Origin: Modestobacter caceresii
GTDB taxonomy: Bacteria > Actinomycetota > Actinomycetes > Mycobacteriales > Geodermatophilaceae
Assembly: GCF_000761485.1 (NCBI RefSeq)
Contig: NZ_JPMX01000118.1
Span: 62,001 to 126,000, forward strand
Direction: 5' to 3'
Length of the DNA stretch: 64,000 nt
Shown here: positions 6,590 through 47,327 of the stretch, piece after piece
Numbering within the stretch: the stretch's first letter is position 1
Layout: each line of letters begins with the position of its first letter
The notes under the pieces: model-generated
Databases searched by the model: none
Told to the model about the DNA's origin: nothing
Seen by the model: only the letters and a program-made list of their open reading frames with translations
Made by a program: the position numbers and the translations under genes

Positions 6590-7738
6590 GTGGGACGGCG
6601 GACGACGGCACCCGGTGCCCGGCGGCTGACGGCACTGCTCCTGGGCGGGCTGCTGCTGGCCGGTTGCGGCGGCGGCTACGAGCCGGCCGGCCCCTTCCGC
6701 GACGTGCCGCAGGGGCAGCCCCCGCAGGTCGCACCGCCGCAGGAGAGCAGCCCGATCCCGGCGCCCGGCCGGCCGTCCACCCCGGGCGCCGAGGACGCGC
6801 AGGCCGGTGACCCGAACGTGGTCGCCACCGACCTCGTCGTGCCCACCGGCCTGGCGCTGCTGCCGGACGGGACGGCGGTGGTCGGTGAGCGGGACACCGG
6901 GCGGCTGCTGCAGGTCTTCCCCGACCGCGCCCAGCCCCGAGAGCTGATGACCGTGCCGAGCGTCGACACCGGCGGGGACGGCGGGCTGCTCGGGCTGGCC
7001 CTCTCGCCCACGTTCGCCGAGGACGGGCTGCTCTACGCCTACGTCTCCACCGCGACCGACAACCGGGTGGTGCGCTTCCCGATCGGCGGCACCCCCAACC
7101 CGGTGCTGACCGGCATCCCCCGCGGCGAGGTGCATAACGGCGGCGGTCTGCTGTTCGGGCCGGACGGCGTGCTCTACGTGGGCACCGGCGACGTCGGGGA
7201 CCCTGCGCTGGCGGCCGACCCGGCGTCGCTGGCCGGGAAGGTGCTGGCCGTCGACGTCTTCGGTCAGCCGGTCGGCGCCGACCCGGTCCTGACCCGCGGG
7301 CACCGGGACGTCACCGCGCTCTGCCAGGGCGGCGACCAGCTCTACGGGACCGACGACGCGCTGCAGGGGACCGACGAGTTCAACGCACTCGTCGCCGGCG
7401 GCGACTACGGGCCCGGCGGCGTCGCACCGGTGCTCGAGGTGCCCGGGGAGGAGGGCGGGCTGGGCGGCTGCGCGGTCACCGGCCCCTACGTCTTCCTCGG
7501 GGCGCTCGACGGGAAGCAGGTGCACGTCGTCGAGCTCGACGGGGCACGGGTCCCGGTCGAGGAGCCGACGGCGTTCCTGGACGAGGACTACGGCCGGCTG
7601 CGCTCGGTGGCCCTGGACGCCGAGGGCGCGCTGTGGATCACCACCTCCAACCGCGACGGGGTGGGCACGCCGGCCGAGGACGACGACAAGGTGCTGCGGG
7701 TGCTCCCGCCGACCTCCTCGGCCGGCTCCCCGCTCTGA
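6590..7738 (+). CDS. Sugar-dehydrogenase-like beta-propeller lipoprotein
   Basis: The 382-residue product begins with a lipoprotein signal peptide (basic GRRTTAPGARR, hydrophobic LTALLLGGLLLAG, lipobox LLAGC). A proline-rich linker of about 45 residues leads to a six-bladed propeller typical of glucose/sorbosone dehydrogenases (PTGLALLPDGTAVVGERDTGRLLQV, GDGGLLGLALSPTFAEDG, LLFGPDGVLYVGTGDVGDP). The family oxidises aldose sugars with PQQ, but many actinobacterial members are uncharacterised and may not use PQQ; no PQQ synthesis genes are here. Expected location is the outer face of the membrane. It converges on the GNAT gene at 7755. Confidence 0.85.
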   Translation: MGRRTTAPGARRLTALLLGGLLLAGCGGGYEPAGPFRDVPQGQPPQVAPPQESSPIPAPGRPSTPGAEDAQAGDPNVVATDLVVPTGLALLPDGTAVVGERDTGRLLQVFPDRAQPRELMTVPSVDTGGDGGLLGLALSPTFAEDGLLYAYVSTATDNRVVRFPIGGTPNPVLTGIPRGEVHNGGGLLFGPDGVLYVGTGDVGDPALAADPASLAGKVLAVDVFGQPVGADPVLTRGHRDVTALCQGGDQLYGTDDALQGTDEFNALVAGGDYGPGGVAPVLEVPGEEGGLGGCAVTGPYVFLGALDGKQVHVVELDGARVPVEEPTAFLDEDYGRLRSVALDAEGALWITTSNRDGVGTPAEDDDKVLRVLPPTSSAGSPL

Positions 7739-42428: not shown

Positions 42429-42518
42429 GCAGTGATCAGGTGACCTGATCACCCGCTGTCCTCCCGCACCAGCGTTGGTGCGGGAGGACAGTCAGTGATC
42501 AGGGGACCTGATCACTGC
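42429..42518. repeat. 90-bp near-perfect inverted repeat (cruciform/terminator)
   Basis: Two 43-nt arms differ at five positions around a GCGT loop. The inner part is a perfect 16-bp stem (CTGTCCTCCCGCACCA at 42456-42471 with its complement at 42476-42491). Each outer part is itself a palindrome: GTGATCAGGT-G-ACCTGATCAC (42432-42452) and CAGTGATCAGG-GGA-CCTGATCACTG (42493-42517). It sits between convergent genes and should terminate both. Confidence 0.85.
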
Positions 42519-42527
42519 TGACCGCGG

Positions 42528-43514
42528 TCAGAAGAGGGCGGTCATGAGGGCGCGGCGGGCCGGGCCGACCCGCGGGTCCTCGTCGCCCACGATGCCGAAC
42601 AGCTCCACCAGGTGCTGCCGGGCGGCGTCCCGCTCCTCGCCCGCGGTGCGCCGGACGACGTCGAGCAGCCAGCCGAACGCGGCGTCGACGTCGCCGGTGC
42701 CGAGCAGGAAGTCCGCGGCGCGGGTCTGCGCGGCGATGTCGTCGGGAGCGGCCTCGGCGGCGGCCAGCGCATCCGGCCCGGCCTCCTCGGCCCGGCGGAA
42801 CAGCTGGACCTGACGCAGCGCCAGCCCGGCCACCGGGTGCTCCGGCTCGGTCTCCAGGATCGCCTGGTAGGCAGCCTCGGCGGCGGCCAGGTCACCCCGG
42901 TCGAGAGCGGCCTCGGCGGCGTCCAGGCGCGGGTCCTCCGGCTCCTCGGCCTCGCCGTCGCCCTTCGCGGCCCCGGGCACCGCGCCCCCGCTGGTGGCCG
43001 CGACGAGCTCGGTCACGAACTGCCGGGCCTGCTCCTCGGGGATGGCCCCGGTGAACTCGGCGACCAGCTGGCCCTGCCAGACGGCCTTGACCGCCGGGAT
43101 GCCCTGGACCCGCAGGCCCTGGGCGAGCGCCGGGTTCGCGTCGACGTCGACCTTGGCCAGCACCCAGGAACCGGCCCCCTCGGCGGCCAGCCGCTCGAGC
43201 ACCGGGGAGAGCTGCTTGCACGGCCCGCACCACTCGGCCCACAGGTCCAGGACGACGGGGACCTGGAAGGAACGGTCGAGGACCTCGCTCTGGAAGGTCG
43301 CCTCGGTGACGTCGATGACGGCGCTGCCGGGCGCACCGGCCGGGGCGGTGGCGCTCGGCGGCGGGGCGGCCGCGGCACGGGCTGCCGCCTCGTTGCGCGC
43401 CTGGACAGCGGCGAGGTCGACCGCACCGGCCAGCGACGCCGCCATCTGGGCCTGCTGGGCAGCGGCCCGGGGATCGGTTCGAGCGGGACGGTTGGGCTGC
43501 ATGACCTCGATCAT
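42528..43514 (-). CDS. Thioredoxin-TPR co-chaperone-like protein (CnoX/YbbN-type)
   Basis: The 328-residue product has a variable N-terminus, a thioredoxin fold with the active site LWAEWCGPCKQLSPVLERL, and a helical TPR region from about residue 220 (LDAAEAALDRGDLAAAEAAYQAIL). This matches CnoX/YbbN proteins, which protect unfolded clients and hand them to chaperones; here both active-site cysteines are kept, so it may be redox-active. ATG 43514 is used; 43502 is possible. Mycobacteria carry a thioredoxin-like gene (Rv1324) in the same neighbourhood as glgB and fadA4. Confidence 0.87.
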   Translation of the reverse strand: MIEVMQPNRPARTDPRAAAQQAQMAASLAGAVDLAAVQARNEAAARAAAAPPPSATAPAGAPGSAVIDVTEATFQSEVLDRSFQVPVVLDLWAEWCGPCKQLSPVLERLAAEGAGSWVLAKVDVDANPALAQGLRVQGIPAVKAVWQGQLVAEFTGAIPEEQARQFVTELVAATSGGAVPGAAKGDGEAEEPEDPRLDAAEAALDRGDLAAAEAAYQAILETEPEHPVAGLALRQVQLFRRAEEAGPDALAAAEAAPDDIAAQTRAADFLLGTGDVDAAFGWLLDVVRRTAGEERDAARQHLVELFGIVGDEDPRVGPARRALMTALF

Positions 43515-43548
43515 CCCACTCGCCGGCGACGGACCGCCCCGGGCCGGG

Positions 43549-43923
43549 TCAGGCCGGTGACCAGACCCCCAACTCGTTGCCGCTCGGGTCGGCGAAGTGG
43601 AACCGCCGGCCACCCGGGAAGTCGTAGGGCCCCTGGACGACGCGGCCCCCGGCGGCCTCCACCGCGCCGAGGGTGCGGTCGAGGTCGGCCGACCAGAGCA
43701 GCACCAGCGGGCCGCCCGGGCGCACCTTGGTGCCGACGGCCAGACCGCCCACCTCCGCTGCCGGGTCGCCGGAGGGACCGCGGATGCCGGCGTAGGTGTC
43801 GCCGTAGGCGGTGAACTCCCAGCCGAAGGCGTCGGCGTAGAACCGCTGCGCCTCCGCGAGGTCGAGGACGGTGAGCTCGACGTAGTCGATGGCGTGGTGA
43901 CGGTGCCCGGTGTGGTCTGCCAT
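43549..43923 (-). CDS. VOC (glyoxalase-fold) family protein
   Basis: The 124-residue single-module protein has the VOC pattern YVELTVLDLAEAQRFYADAFGWEF, a middle loop GIRGPSGDPAAEVGGLAVG and the C-terminal HFADPSGNELGVWSP. A His and Glu at metal positions (HHAIDYVEL, GNELGV) are visible. Activity unknown; many members bind antibiotics or metals without catalysis. ATG 43923 is used. It follows icmA by 26 nt on the same strand. Confidence 0.85.
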   Translation of the reverse strand: MADHTGHRHHAIDYVELTVLDLAEAQRFYADAFGWEFTAYGDTYAGIRGPSGDPAAEVGGLAVGTKVRPGGPLVLLWSADLDRTLGAVEAAGGRVVQGPYDFPGGRRFHFADPSGNELGVWSPA

Positions 43924-45690: not shown

Positions 45691-46200
45691 TCAGTCGTCG
45701 GCGACGTCCCCCGCGCCGAGCCGGACCTTCTTGAGCACGTCGAACAGCACGTCCAGCTCCGCCTCGGGCAGGTCGGCGAGCCCGAAGTCCTGGCCGGTCA
45801 GCGCCTCGGTCGCCCGCGGGACGACGTCCCGTCCGGCGTCGGTGATCGCGGCGAGCACCCCGCGGCCGTCGGCGGGGTTGGGCCGCCGCTCGACGTACCC
45901 GGCCGCCACCAGCCGCTCGATCGCGTTGGTGACGCTGGTCGGGTGCACCATCAACCGGCTGCCGATCACCTTCAGCGGCAGCTGCCCGGTGCGGGAGAAG
46001 GTCAGCAGCACCAGCACCTCGTACCGGGCGAAGGTCAGCCCGTGCGGCCTGAGCGCCTCGTCGAAGCGGGCCAGCAGGATCTGCTGCACCCGGAACACGC
46101 TCGTCGCCGCCCGCATCGAGGCGGCCGGGCCGAAGTGCTGCTCCCAGCTCTGCGCCGCGCGCTCGATCGGGTCGAAGGGCAGGCCCAGCGGTCGCACCAT
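45691..46200 (-). CDS. MarR family transcriptional regulator
   Basis: The 169-residue winged-helix protein has the MarR core: LLARFDEALRPHGLTFARYE, LPLKVIGSRLMVHPTSVTNAIERLVAAGYVERRP and NPADGRGVLAAITDAG with the wing. ATG 46200 gives the family's usual N-terminus. It precedes icmA by 49 nt, and a palindromic site lies in that gap, so it likely represses icmA and may respond to an acyl-CoA or related ligand. Autoregulation is not excluded. Divergent from the DUF559 gene. Confidence 0.88.
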   Translation of the reverse strand: MVRPLGLPFDPIERAAQSWEQHFGPAASMRAATSVFRVQQILLARFDEALRPHGLTFARYEVLVLLTFSRTGQLPLKVIGSRLMVHPTSVTNAIERLVAAGYVERRPNPADGRGVLAAITDAGRDVVPRATEALTGQDFGLADLPEAELDVLFDVLKKVRLGAGDVADD

Positions 46201-46271
46201 GACCGGGAGGCTAGTTCTCCGCCGCCGCACCCCCGCCTCCGCCGGGCCCCGCCTCCGCCGGCGCCGCCGCC

Positions 46272-46333
46272 GCCGAGTGTCGAGTTGTCGACCCCTGTCG
46301 ATGCAGGGACACGTCGACAGGTCGACACTCGGC
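46272..46333. repeat. Palindromic element upstream of the DUF559 gene
   Basis: Two 21-nt arms (46272-46292 and 46313-46333) differ at two positions; inside, CCCTG/CAGGG forms a second short stem. It contains GTGTCGAGTTGTCGACC at 46277-46293, which recurs exactly and inverted at 47311-47327 beyond the gene. Confidence 0.8.
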
Positions 46334-46399
46334 GCACGGCCGCGGCAGGCCTGTGGACGGCGGGCCCGGTCGCCGCCCTGCGTCGGCCAGGCTCGCCCG

Positions 46400-47275
46400 G
46401 TGGTCGTACCCGCGCACCGTCCACCGGCGCTGCGTGGACGCGTCTTCCGCGGCAGCGCAGCGGTCGGGGCGGGGCTGCTCACCCGGCGGCAGCTGGACAG
46501 CAGCGCCTGGCACCGGCTCTTCCGCGACGTCTACGCGTGCGCCGACCTGACCGTCACGCACGAGCTCCGCGCCGTGGCCGCCGCGTCGGTCCTGCTGCCG
46601 GGCGCTGTCGTCACCGGAGCCAGTGCCGCCGTCCTGTGGGGCCTGGCCGCAGCCGGCCCGGAGGACGACGTGCAGCTGACCGTGCCGCCCGCGACGCGGA
46701 CCAGCGTGGTCAGCGGCGTGCGCGTGAGCCGCGCGGCGCTCCGTCCCGGCGACGTCACCCGCCGGCGCGGTGTCCCGGTCACCACGCCCGAACGGACCGC
46801 CGTGTCGCTGGGCGCCGACCGCCCGCTCGACGAGGCCGTGGTGCTCATCGACCAGCTCGCCGCCGCCGGCCTGCTCGACCTCGGCGACGTCCGGGCCATG
46901 GCCGCGGCGACCACCGGCCGAGGGTGCCGGCGGGCCCGGGCCGCCGCCGGACTGGCGGACGGACTGGCCGGCTCACCCCAGGGGACCCGGCTGCGGTTGC
47001 TGCTGTACCGCGCCGGGCTGCCGACGCCGGTCGCCCAGCACTCCGTGCACGACGGGCGGGTGTTCGTGGCCCGGGTCGACTTCGCCTGGCCCGAGCAGCG
47101 ACTGGCCCTGGAGGACGACGGGCTGTGGCACGCCGAGCCCGGCCAGTTCGCCGCCGCCCGCCGTCGGCTCGACCGACTGCTGGCCGCGGGCTGGCGGGTC
47201 CTCTTCGTGACCGCGGCCGACCTGCACCGGCCCGATCAGCTGATCACCCGGATCGCGGCCGAACTGGCTCGCTGA
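46400..47275 (+). CDS. DUF559-domain (Vsr-like nuclease fold) protein with N-terminal winged-helix-like region
   Basis: The 291-residue product begins with an AbiEi-like winged-helix segment (LLTRRQLDSSAWHRLFRDVY, then AVVTGASAAVLWGL) and ends with a DUF559 domain: FVARVDFAWPEQRLALEDDG, LWHAEPGQFAAARRRLDRLL and AGWRVLFVTAADLHRPDQLI. The Asp/Glu pattern matches the Vsr/PD-(D/E)xK fold, but nuclease activity is unproven for most members. GTG 46400 (VVVPAHRPP) is chosen; no clear ribosome site. The gene is closely bracketed by two palindromes sharing an exact 17-bp motif, the second beginning right after the stop. Confidence 0.8.
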   Translation: MVVPAHRPPALRGRVFRGSAAVGAGLLTRRQLDSSAWHRLFRDVYACADLTVTHELRAVAAASVLLPGAVVTGASAAVLWGLAAAGPEDDVQLTVPPATRTSVVSGVRVSRAALRPGDVTRRRGVPVTTPERTAVSLGADRPLDEAVVLIDQLAAAGLLDLGDVRAMAAATTGRGCRRARAAAGLADGLAGSPQGTRLRLLLYRAGLPTPVAQHSVHDGRVFVARVDFAWPEQRLALEDDGLWHAEPGQFAAARRRLDRLLAAGWRVLFVTAADLHRPDQLITRIAAELAR

Positions 47276-47327
47276 GTGTCGACTCGTCGACCCCTCACGC
47301 GGGGGCGACAGGTCGACAACTCGACAC
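47276..47327. repeat. Palindromic element downstream of the DUF559 gene
   Basis: GTGTCGACTCGTCGACC (47276-47292) pairs with GGTCGACAACTCGACAC (47311-47327) with two mismatches and an 18-nt loop. It begins at the base after the stop codon and carries, inverted, the exact 17-bp motif of the upstream element. Confidence 0.8.

Follow-up and report, generated by a model that had tools for sequence, protein, structure and literature searches.

The window, the whole 64,000-nucleotide stretch of Modestobacter caceresii DNA that was analysed, contains a gene bracketed by two related palindromes between a MarR-family regulator and an oxidoreductase. The features considered here were as follows:

42432..42515, no strand: gene-less nested palindrome of another family, matching the upstream flank of locus L128 at 94% over 51 nt
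45691..46200, minus strand: MarR-family regulator, left border of the site (window scan)
46271..46334, no strand: upstream palindrome, arms 46271-46292 and 46313-46334, with a 20-nt loop
46350..46362, plus strand: conserved box CCTGTGGACGGCG, located after the upstream palindrome and before the start codon
46400..47275, plus strand: AbiEi-like plus DUF559 (predicted Vsr/EDxHD-type) protein, 291 aa, probable GTG start
46604..46834, plus strand: AbiEi_1 domain match, residues 69-145 (Pfam)
46982..46984, plus strand: codon 195, first residue of the nuclease tetrad, Gly in the window versus Glu in 147/151 aligned rows
47075..47263, plus strand: match to the DUF559 nuclease domain (residues 226-288), in which Asp227 and His244 are retained
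47156..47158, plus strand: codon 253, fourth residue of the tetrad, Ala in the window versus Asp in 140/151 aligned rows
47276..47327, no strand: downstream palindrome, from the first base after the stop codon
47348..48823, minus strand: FAD-dependent oxidoreductase, right border of the site (window scan and site comparison)

The initial annotation had described a 17-mer shared by the two palindromes and found no further copy. This motif, GTGTCGAGTTGTCGACC, indeed lies exactly at 46277-46293 (plus strand) and 47311-47327 (minus strand), and these are its only exact occurrences in the whole 4.95-Mb genome. With up to three mismatches the window held five matches against 0.34 expected, namely the four hairpin arms and one place elsewhere (63651), and the full hairpin pattern was found nowhere in the host genome beyond its two flanks. 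The two hairpins described at the outset are both present, but the downstream one folds more weakly: as single-stranded DNA the upstream hairpin (46271-46334) gave z = -8.46, and the downstream hairpin (47276-47327) gave z = -2.37, with an equally good fold in 6 of 200 shuffles. The downstream palindrome was rightly placed directly behind the gene, the TGA ending at 47275 and the palindrome starting at 47276, and in relatives the GA of the stop codon belongs to the stem. When a pair of flanks was slid along the window (1563 positions), the DUF559 locus came top with a score of 27, followed by 18 at 45940-46020 (with its downstream flank inside the gene) and 17 elsewhere. The tetranucleotide GTAG is absent from both window palindromes (46271-46334 and 47276-47327).

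Two simple explanations were rejected. The motif is not a genome-wide terminator, with only two exact copies in the genome, and a mobile element restricted to the window was ruled out after orthologous and paralogous loci had been read.

The window also holds a solo palindrome of another family (42432-42515), consisting of GATCAGGTGACCTGATC around TGTCCTCCCGCACCAGCG..; the locus whose upstream flank it matches, L128, is a DUF559-family gene in genome G009. It apparently lies between convergent genes, the right one being an ORF at 42528-43613 on the minus strand and the end of the left one having been placed by eye.

The protein family and the state of the window copy

Diverse paralogues of the window gene were found, many per genus genome. 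Our family sample comprised 151 loci, of which 92 came from Modestobacter, taken among the matches listed with weaker matches left aside, and 59 from other named records, nearly all belonging to other genera of Geodermatophilaceae (59 of 79 named loci kept; the other 20 lay in genomes already in the Modestobacter set). In Pfam the window protein matched AbiEi_1 with E = 4.5e-5, above the cut-off, and DUF559 with E = 0.009, below the cut-off. Among 27 aligned members, the window protein included, DUF559 was matched by 22 and MTES_1575 by 20 at E <= 0.1, and the scan of these members returned DUF559, MTES_1575, AbiEi and minor matches, with no Y1-transposase or other transposase domain. The N-terminal halves of four relatives matched the AbiEi models of PADLOC with best E-values of 1e-11 to 1e-20. 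A profile of the 27 members matched PDB 3r3p ('Mobile intron protein', E = 4e-4), which we take to be I-Bth0305I, the type enzyme of the EDxHD homing endonucleases, as well as 3hrl (E = 4e-4) and, weakly, Vsr (E ~0.25). These profile matches point to a Vsr/EDxHD-type nuclease fold for the family.

Alignment columns E195, D227, H244, and D253 read E-D-H-D in 138 of 150 rows, the exceptions including broken genes and a group with E-D-Y-E. From their order and the 3r3p match we infer that these columns are the EDxHD residues. The window protein reads G-D-H-A and thus lacks two of the four conserved residues. Its cassette, by which we mean the gene with its two palindromes, looks like a decaying member of the family and is probably an inactive remnant with intact ends. 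The window copy is a poor candidate for a live unit because its palindromes have no dispersed copies and two tetrad residues are missing.

No AbiEii-type partner gene was recognised either in the window, where the scanned neighbours are the MarR regulator and the oxidoreductase, or at 17 representative loci whose neighbours were read as translations. A query with L023, one of the relatives, gave no match among 50,697 phage records and, among 72,556 plasmid records, two weak ones.

A further conserved part lies between the upstream palindrome and the gene. TGTGGA or its complement occurred in 148/151 loci versus 76 of 1769 background 200-nt stretches, and TGTGGA alone in 134/151 loci versus 0 of 234 shifted controls. 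It was present in 19 of 25 loci from other families of the order (L233 omitted), with the box on the other strand in some groups. The core TGTGGA/TCCACA resembles an actinobacterial DnaA box. We regard the box as a separate anatomical part, because cassettes whose palindromes are unrelated share it.

Matched palindromes and shared sites

In most genes of the family one palindrome precedes the matched coding start, usually by 50-90 nt and by more in some groups, and another lies at the stop codon or shortly behind it. Within a locus the two are alike, whereas other paralogue groups have very different palindromes, with types including GTGTCGA.., TGATCATCGGC.., TGACAGCTCAGCGGG.., GGGGCCATGTTGGCCAACATGGCCCC, GGGCAGAAATGGCCATTTCTGCCC, and more. 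In 121 of 151 loci (84/92 and 37/59 in the two sets) the match between a locus's own upstream and downstream flanks exceeded 99% of 117 shifted controls; 22 of the 30 loci below this cut-off were in the non-Modestobacter set. Own flanks also exceeded 99% of unrelated pairs in 81 of the 92 Modestobacter-set loci. The mean matched-flank score of the family was 25.7, versus 11.6 for MarR paralogue controls (15 of 17 loci used, L063 and L077 dropped), one of which reached the control maximum of 19.5.

A cross-locus control proved unusable for the set of 59 loci (cross 95% value 74, own scores above it in 0/59), because many loci share a site in opposite orientation and their flanking genes cross-match. 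It was replaced by the shifted-flank controls and by a hairpin-only test, in which 65/92 and 33/59 loci were above the 95% cut and 39/92 and 21/59 above the 99% cut; the latter test is the weaker of the two, and its cross pairs include close relatives. The ungapped hairpin score exceeded 95% of controls upstream in 70% of the 92 and 54% of the 59 loci, downstream in 71% and 39%, and at both flanks in only 50% and 25%. Among loci from other families of the order, 16 of 26 passed the same matched-flank cut-off, which was derived from Geodermatophilaceae controls (26 of 30 loci kept, four partial or weak ones dropped).

By eye, most palindrome loops in one group (L131-L137, L238, and L246) share GACACGCC/GGCGTGTC while their stems differ. 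The shared sequence hints that the loop contains a second recognised element.

Of the intergenic sites occupied by the 151 loci, 14 are shared and 9 are singletons. We compared upstream with downstream palindromes across loci. For pairs below 60% protein identity, the median similarity was 8.0 at the same site (345 pairs) and 7.0 at other sites (9132 pairs); at 70-85% identity it was 13.0 and 12.0, respectively. There was a small site effect under 60% identity, with scores of at least 14 in 9% of same-site versus 1% of other-site pairs. Judged by these scores, the palindromes appear to follow the protein more than the site. Flanking genes were convergent in 10 of the 14 representative loci at which both neighbours were called, using a crude ORF call.

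Cassettes can lie in either direction at one site. At corA-rsmI (the names corA, rsmI, glpK, and pgm were read from translations and not profile-scanned), 37 cassettes were oriented 18:19, with at least six changes on the protein tree. Two further sites had both orientations (7:2 and 5:2), and the remaining 11 shared sites a single one. The G001 and G009 cassettes at glpK-pgm are mutually inverted, with palindromes at the borders. Five divergent corA-rsmI cassettes, 32-37% identical to any of the 151, had unrelated palindromes; in G013 and G001, at least, these looked complete at both ends by eye.

All 23 genus genomes searched contained a match to the MarR border gene, at 82-100% identity in 13, and the MarR-oxidoreductase site was read in 13 genus genomes. 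The window-type gene with TGTCGA..GTCGAC palindromes was present in G000, G019, G014, G001, and G018. At the same site, G014 and G019 had the window's upstream palindrome; in G018 and G001 it was more variable or degenerate. The downstream 50-nt hairpin-pattern match was identical in G001 and G019. In G005, G015, and G009 the site held a 61-64% identical gene with another palindrome pair, the G009 gene being frameshifted. G017 had both palindromes and a C-terminal remnant but no intact gene, and G002 had other sequence. The site was empty in G010, G013, and G021, with no such hairpin at any of the three. Close relatives thus vary in the content of this site, which may be a gene, a remnant, other sequence or nothing among the 13 genomes. 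The initial annotation had named two outcomes that would speak against its reading, a site occupied in all relatives and hairpins unassociated with DUF559 genes. Neither occurred; the site is empty in G010, G013, and G021. At L044 (G014:C8), the downstream flank has an N run followed by a C tract inside the palindrome, probably an assembly gap at the hairpin.

Empty and degraded sites were also found elsewhere. The 23 rsmI loci read (of 24 matches) comprised 14 with a main-family gene, five with a divergent one, one with a fragment, and three with no gene; the last three (G007, G022, and a second G002 contig) had one hairpin each, family-like by eye. At pgm (23 loci read of 24 matches) ten were occupied, one had a fragment, and 12 had no gene within 1500 nt, four of them clean empty sites followed by the glpK end (G011, G008, G022, and G016). 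Gene-less pgm sites in G008 and G011 had terminator-like hairpins by eye. No target-site duplication or excision product was recognised in comparisons of occupied with empty sites, whose boundaries are blurred by divergence, and no movement event was seen in comparisons of genus genomes.

Palindromes dispersed without a gene

Copies of palindrome types P1, A, and B were counted in 23 genomes, gene-flank copies included, and reversed controls gave 0 in every genome. P1 (GGCAGAAATGGCCATTTCTGCC, up to three mismatches) had 29 copies each in G001 and G009 and 16 in G003, the three genomes in which a gene carries it. It was also found in G018 (19 copies; the gene there has a variant), G006 (19, none of them exact), and G007 (17), with at most nine elsewhere. 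Type A (CCRCCAAAATGGCCATTTTGGYGG, up to two mismatches) was found in genomes whose genes carry it (44 in G000, 23 in G002, 22 in G005, 13 in G004, and 9 in G017) and in genomes with genes of other types (27 in G001, 25 in G009, 25 in G019, and 22 in G014), with 0 or 1 elsewhere; the resident genes of these non-carriers were of type C in G019 and G014 and of type P1 in G001 and G009. Type B (GGGCCATGTTSGCSAACATGGCCC, up to two mismatches) reached 49 copies in G007, 38 in G006, and 22 in G013, all three having genes with this palindrome. Further copies occurred in G017 (49), G011 (23, of which 21 have two mismatches), G010 (12, with a gene of another type), G022 (9), and G008 (5), with 0 or 1 elsewhere. 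The G017 copies (GGGCCATGTT..) do not match the DUF559 genes examined there, the known gene of the group being of type A. Cognate genes may exist in G017 and G011, because both have further DUF559 matches (two in G017; in G011 including its one candidate gene, at a contig end), so that the cognate gene in G017 may be one of these two or may have been lost. In G015 and G021, in which no gene of the P1, A or B group was read, counts of the three types were 0, 0, 0 and 0, 0, 1. The fit between dispersed palindrome type and resident gene type is therefore imperfect.

Of 90 copies examined, 68 lay outside and 22 inside a long coding-like ORF, as called by a crude caller. Some copies formed doublets: among the listed coordinates, 9 of 11 non-gene doublets were spaced 52-55 bp, and five pairs among the fetched copies had spacings of 31, 31, 35, 52, and 54. 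The 75 copies away from DUF559 genes yielded 30 scored comparisons with a relative, in 21 of which the relative kept the group palindrome; six had no hairpin (one being a trimming artefact) and three had another hairpin (two representing one doublet). There were seven distinct places at which the solo palindrome of one species was missing from a relative or swapped for another hairpin, and by eye the replacing hairpins resembled palindromes bracketing other DUF559 groups.

Dispersal was found for one subfamily group, with up to 49 copies per genome, and other groups were sampled only. In four genome samples of 400-464 kb, own-genome palindromes were modestly commoner, with a mean of 1.04 (50 cells) versus 0.46 (686 cells). 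A separate case, L389 (G019:C1:340001-360000, near local position 7500), appeared by eye to be an intergenic palindrome mosaic resembling the L127 and L138 types, which bracket two different DUF559 groups.

Interpretation and comparison with known systems

The initial annotation had proposed a REP/RAYT-like unit in which a Vsr-fold nuclease-like protein stands in for the transposase. For the family this proposal gains from the matched palindromes, the empty and occupied sites, the two orientations, and the dispersal of one group, but the window copy itself does not hold up as a live unit. In our judgement the gene with its two palindromes probably belongs, as one cassette, to a large family of selfish nuclease elements that are tied to particular sites and are REP/RAYT-like but without a RAYT. 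We are evenly divided on the broader proposal of an undescribed selfish class, in which AbiEi-EDxHD nucleases would maintain and spread their own palindromes, creating REP-like repeats without an HUH transposase, and would reinvade fixed intergenic havens, some in either orientation.

We infer mobility and enzyme action of the cassettes from sequence comparison. The AbiEi-like N-terminal part may recognise the cassette's own palindrome; recognition by the protein or its DNA is suggested because matched pairs co-diverge with the protein. The EDxHD/Vsr-type C-terminal domain would cut DNA at the target, as suggested because the nuclease residues are conserved. Repair of the break from a cassette or palindrome elsewhere would then copy the cassette, or the palindrome alone, into intergenic targets, and the cassette would spread much like a homing endonuclease gene. 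During decay the nuclease residues would go first and then the gene, the palindromes staying behind, and the window copy seems to be at such a stage. A selfish life cycle is proposed because sites are found empty, inverted, decayed or with a single palindrome, and gene-less palindromes are dispersed.

AbiEi antitoxins are DNA-binding autoregulators, and the palindromes might instead serve an insulated regulatory gene as its operators and terminators, which we consider unlikely. The AbiEi-like domain, matched in the window protein and its relatives, would bind both palindromes and repress its own gene, the downstream palindrome doubling as terminator, and co-divergence would follow from drifting binding specificity. 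The positions fit, with the upstream palindrome mostly ending ~50-90 nt before the coding start and the downstream one lying at the stop codon, and with convergent neighbours in 10 of 14 loci the palindromes there could be kept as terminators. However, this explanation gives no account of the dispersed gene-less copies, of single palindromes without a gene, of both orientations at one site or of the conserved nuclease tetrad. The nuclease could also serve in defence or in a toxin-antitoxin-like role, the palindromes marking self or holding the protein inactive and conflict with phages driving the variety of paralogues. We regard this as quite improbable: the PADLOC AbiEi matches of four relatives and the many diverse paralogues per genome agree with it, but no AbiEii-type partner was recognised, L023 had no phage-record match and only two weak plasmid-record matches, and most loci occupy shared, fixed intergenic sites.

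We give very little probability to the converse order of events, in which the palindromes are ordinary repeats spread by other machinery and DUF559 genes insert into existing hairpins, duplicating them. Such an origin would agree with the hairpins seen by eye at gene-less sites of G007 and G022 (corA-rsmI) and of G008 and G011 (pgm, terminator-like), and with the imperfect fit between dispersed and resident types. It is at odds with one site holding different proteins with different palindromes, with a protein group keeping its palindrome across sites, and with the three empty MarR sites without such a hairpin.

The cassette family in Geodermatophilaceae is apparently undescribed. Judged by titles and the beginnings of abstracts, searches of open-licence literature listed no paper describing DUF559 genes with palindromes, and two open-licence papers containing both 'DUF559' and 'palindrom' have other subjects; this is weak evidence of novelty. 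DUF559 is a domain of unknown function, and its link to cognate palindromes offers a substrate that can be tested and perhaps a role. Should the nuclease be what drives the repeats, REP-like repeats would have a second origin, unrelated to the first, and some high-GC actinobacterial repeats would have a nameable source. In addition, the fast-diverging protein-palindrome pairs would form a naturally varied collection of DNA recognisers.

The closest known arrangement is that of REP/RAYT systems (REPtrons and TIRtrons, with IS200/IS605-related tyrosine transposases), in which, according to PMC3733652, a gene is bracketed by its own palindromes. The cassettes share with these systems the palindromes around the gene, the occurrence of different genes with different palindromes in one genome and, for one subfamily group, dispersal of palindromes, most of them lying outside coding-like ORFs and some forming doublets. 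In contrast, RAYT enzymes have an HUH motif and a catalytic tyrosine, whereas the cassette protein combines AbiEi-like and DUF559/Vsr-EDxHD parts, and the window palindromes differ from the GTAG class in lacking GTAG. EDxHD homing endonucleases and Vsr are approached through the 3r3p profile match, the weak Vsr match, and the E-D-H-D columns, and the site-bound presence, absence, and decay of cassettes recall the life cycle of homing genes. According to PMC3943268, I-Bth0305I binds as a dimer to a target of almost 60 bp, which is the size of many cassette palindromes. Unlike these enzymes, the cassettes lie outside introns and inteins where read, are bracketed by cognate palindromes, and encode an AbiEi-like N-terminus, and L023 had no match in phage records. 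The likeness to AbiEi, the antitoxin of type IV toxin-antitoxin systems, is confined to the N-terminal half, which is fused to a predicted nuclease domain and has no recognised AbiEii partner. As with MITEs and insertion sequences, there are a deleted derivative with both ends (G017) and gene-less end copies, but no transposase domain was found in the 27 members scanned and no target duplication was recognised. Because neither the enzyme nor the required mechanism belongs to a known palindrome-spreading system, the cassettes would constitute a new kind.
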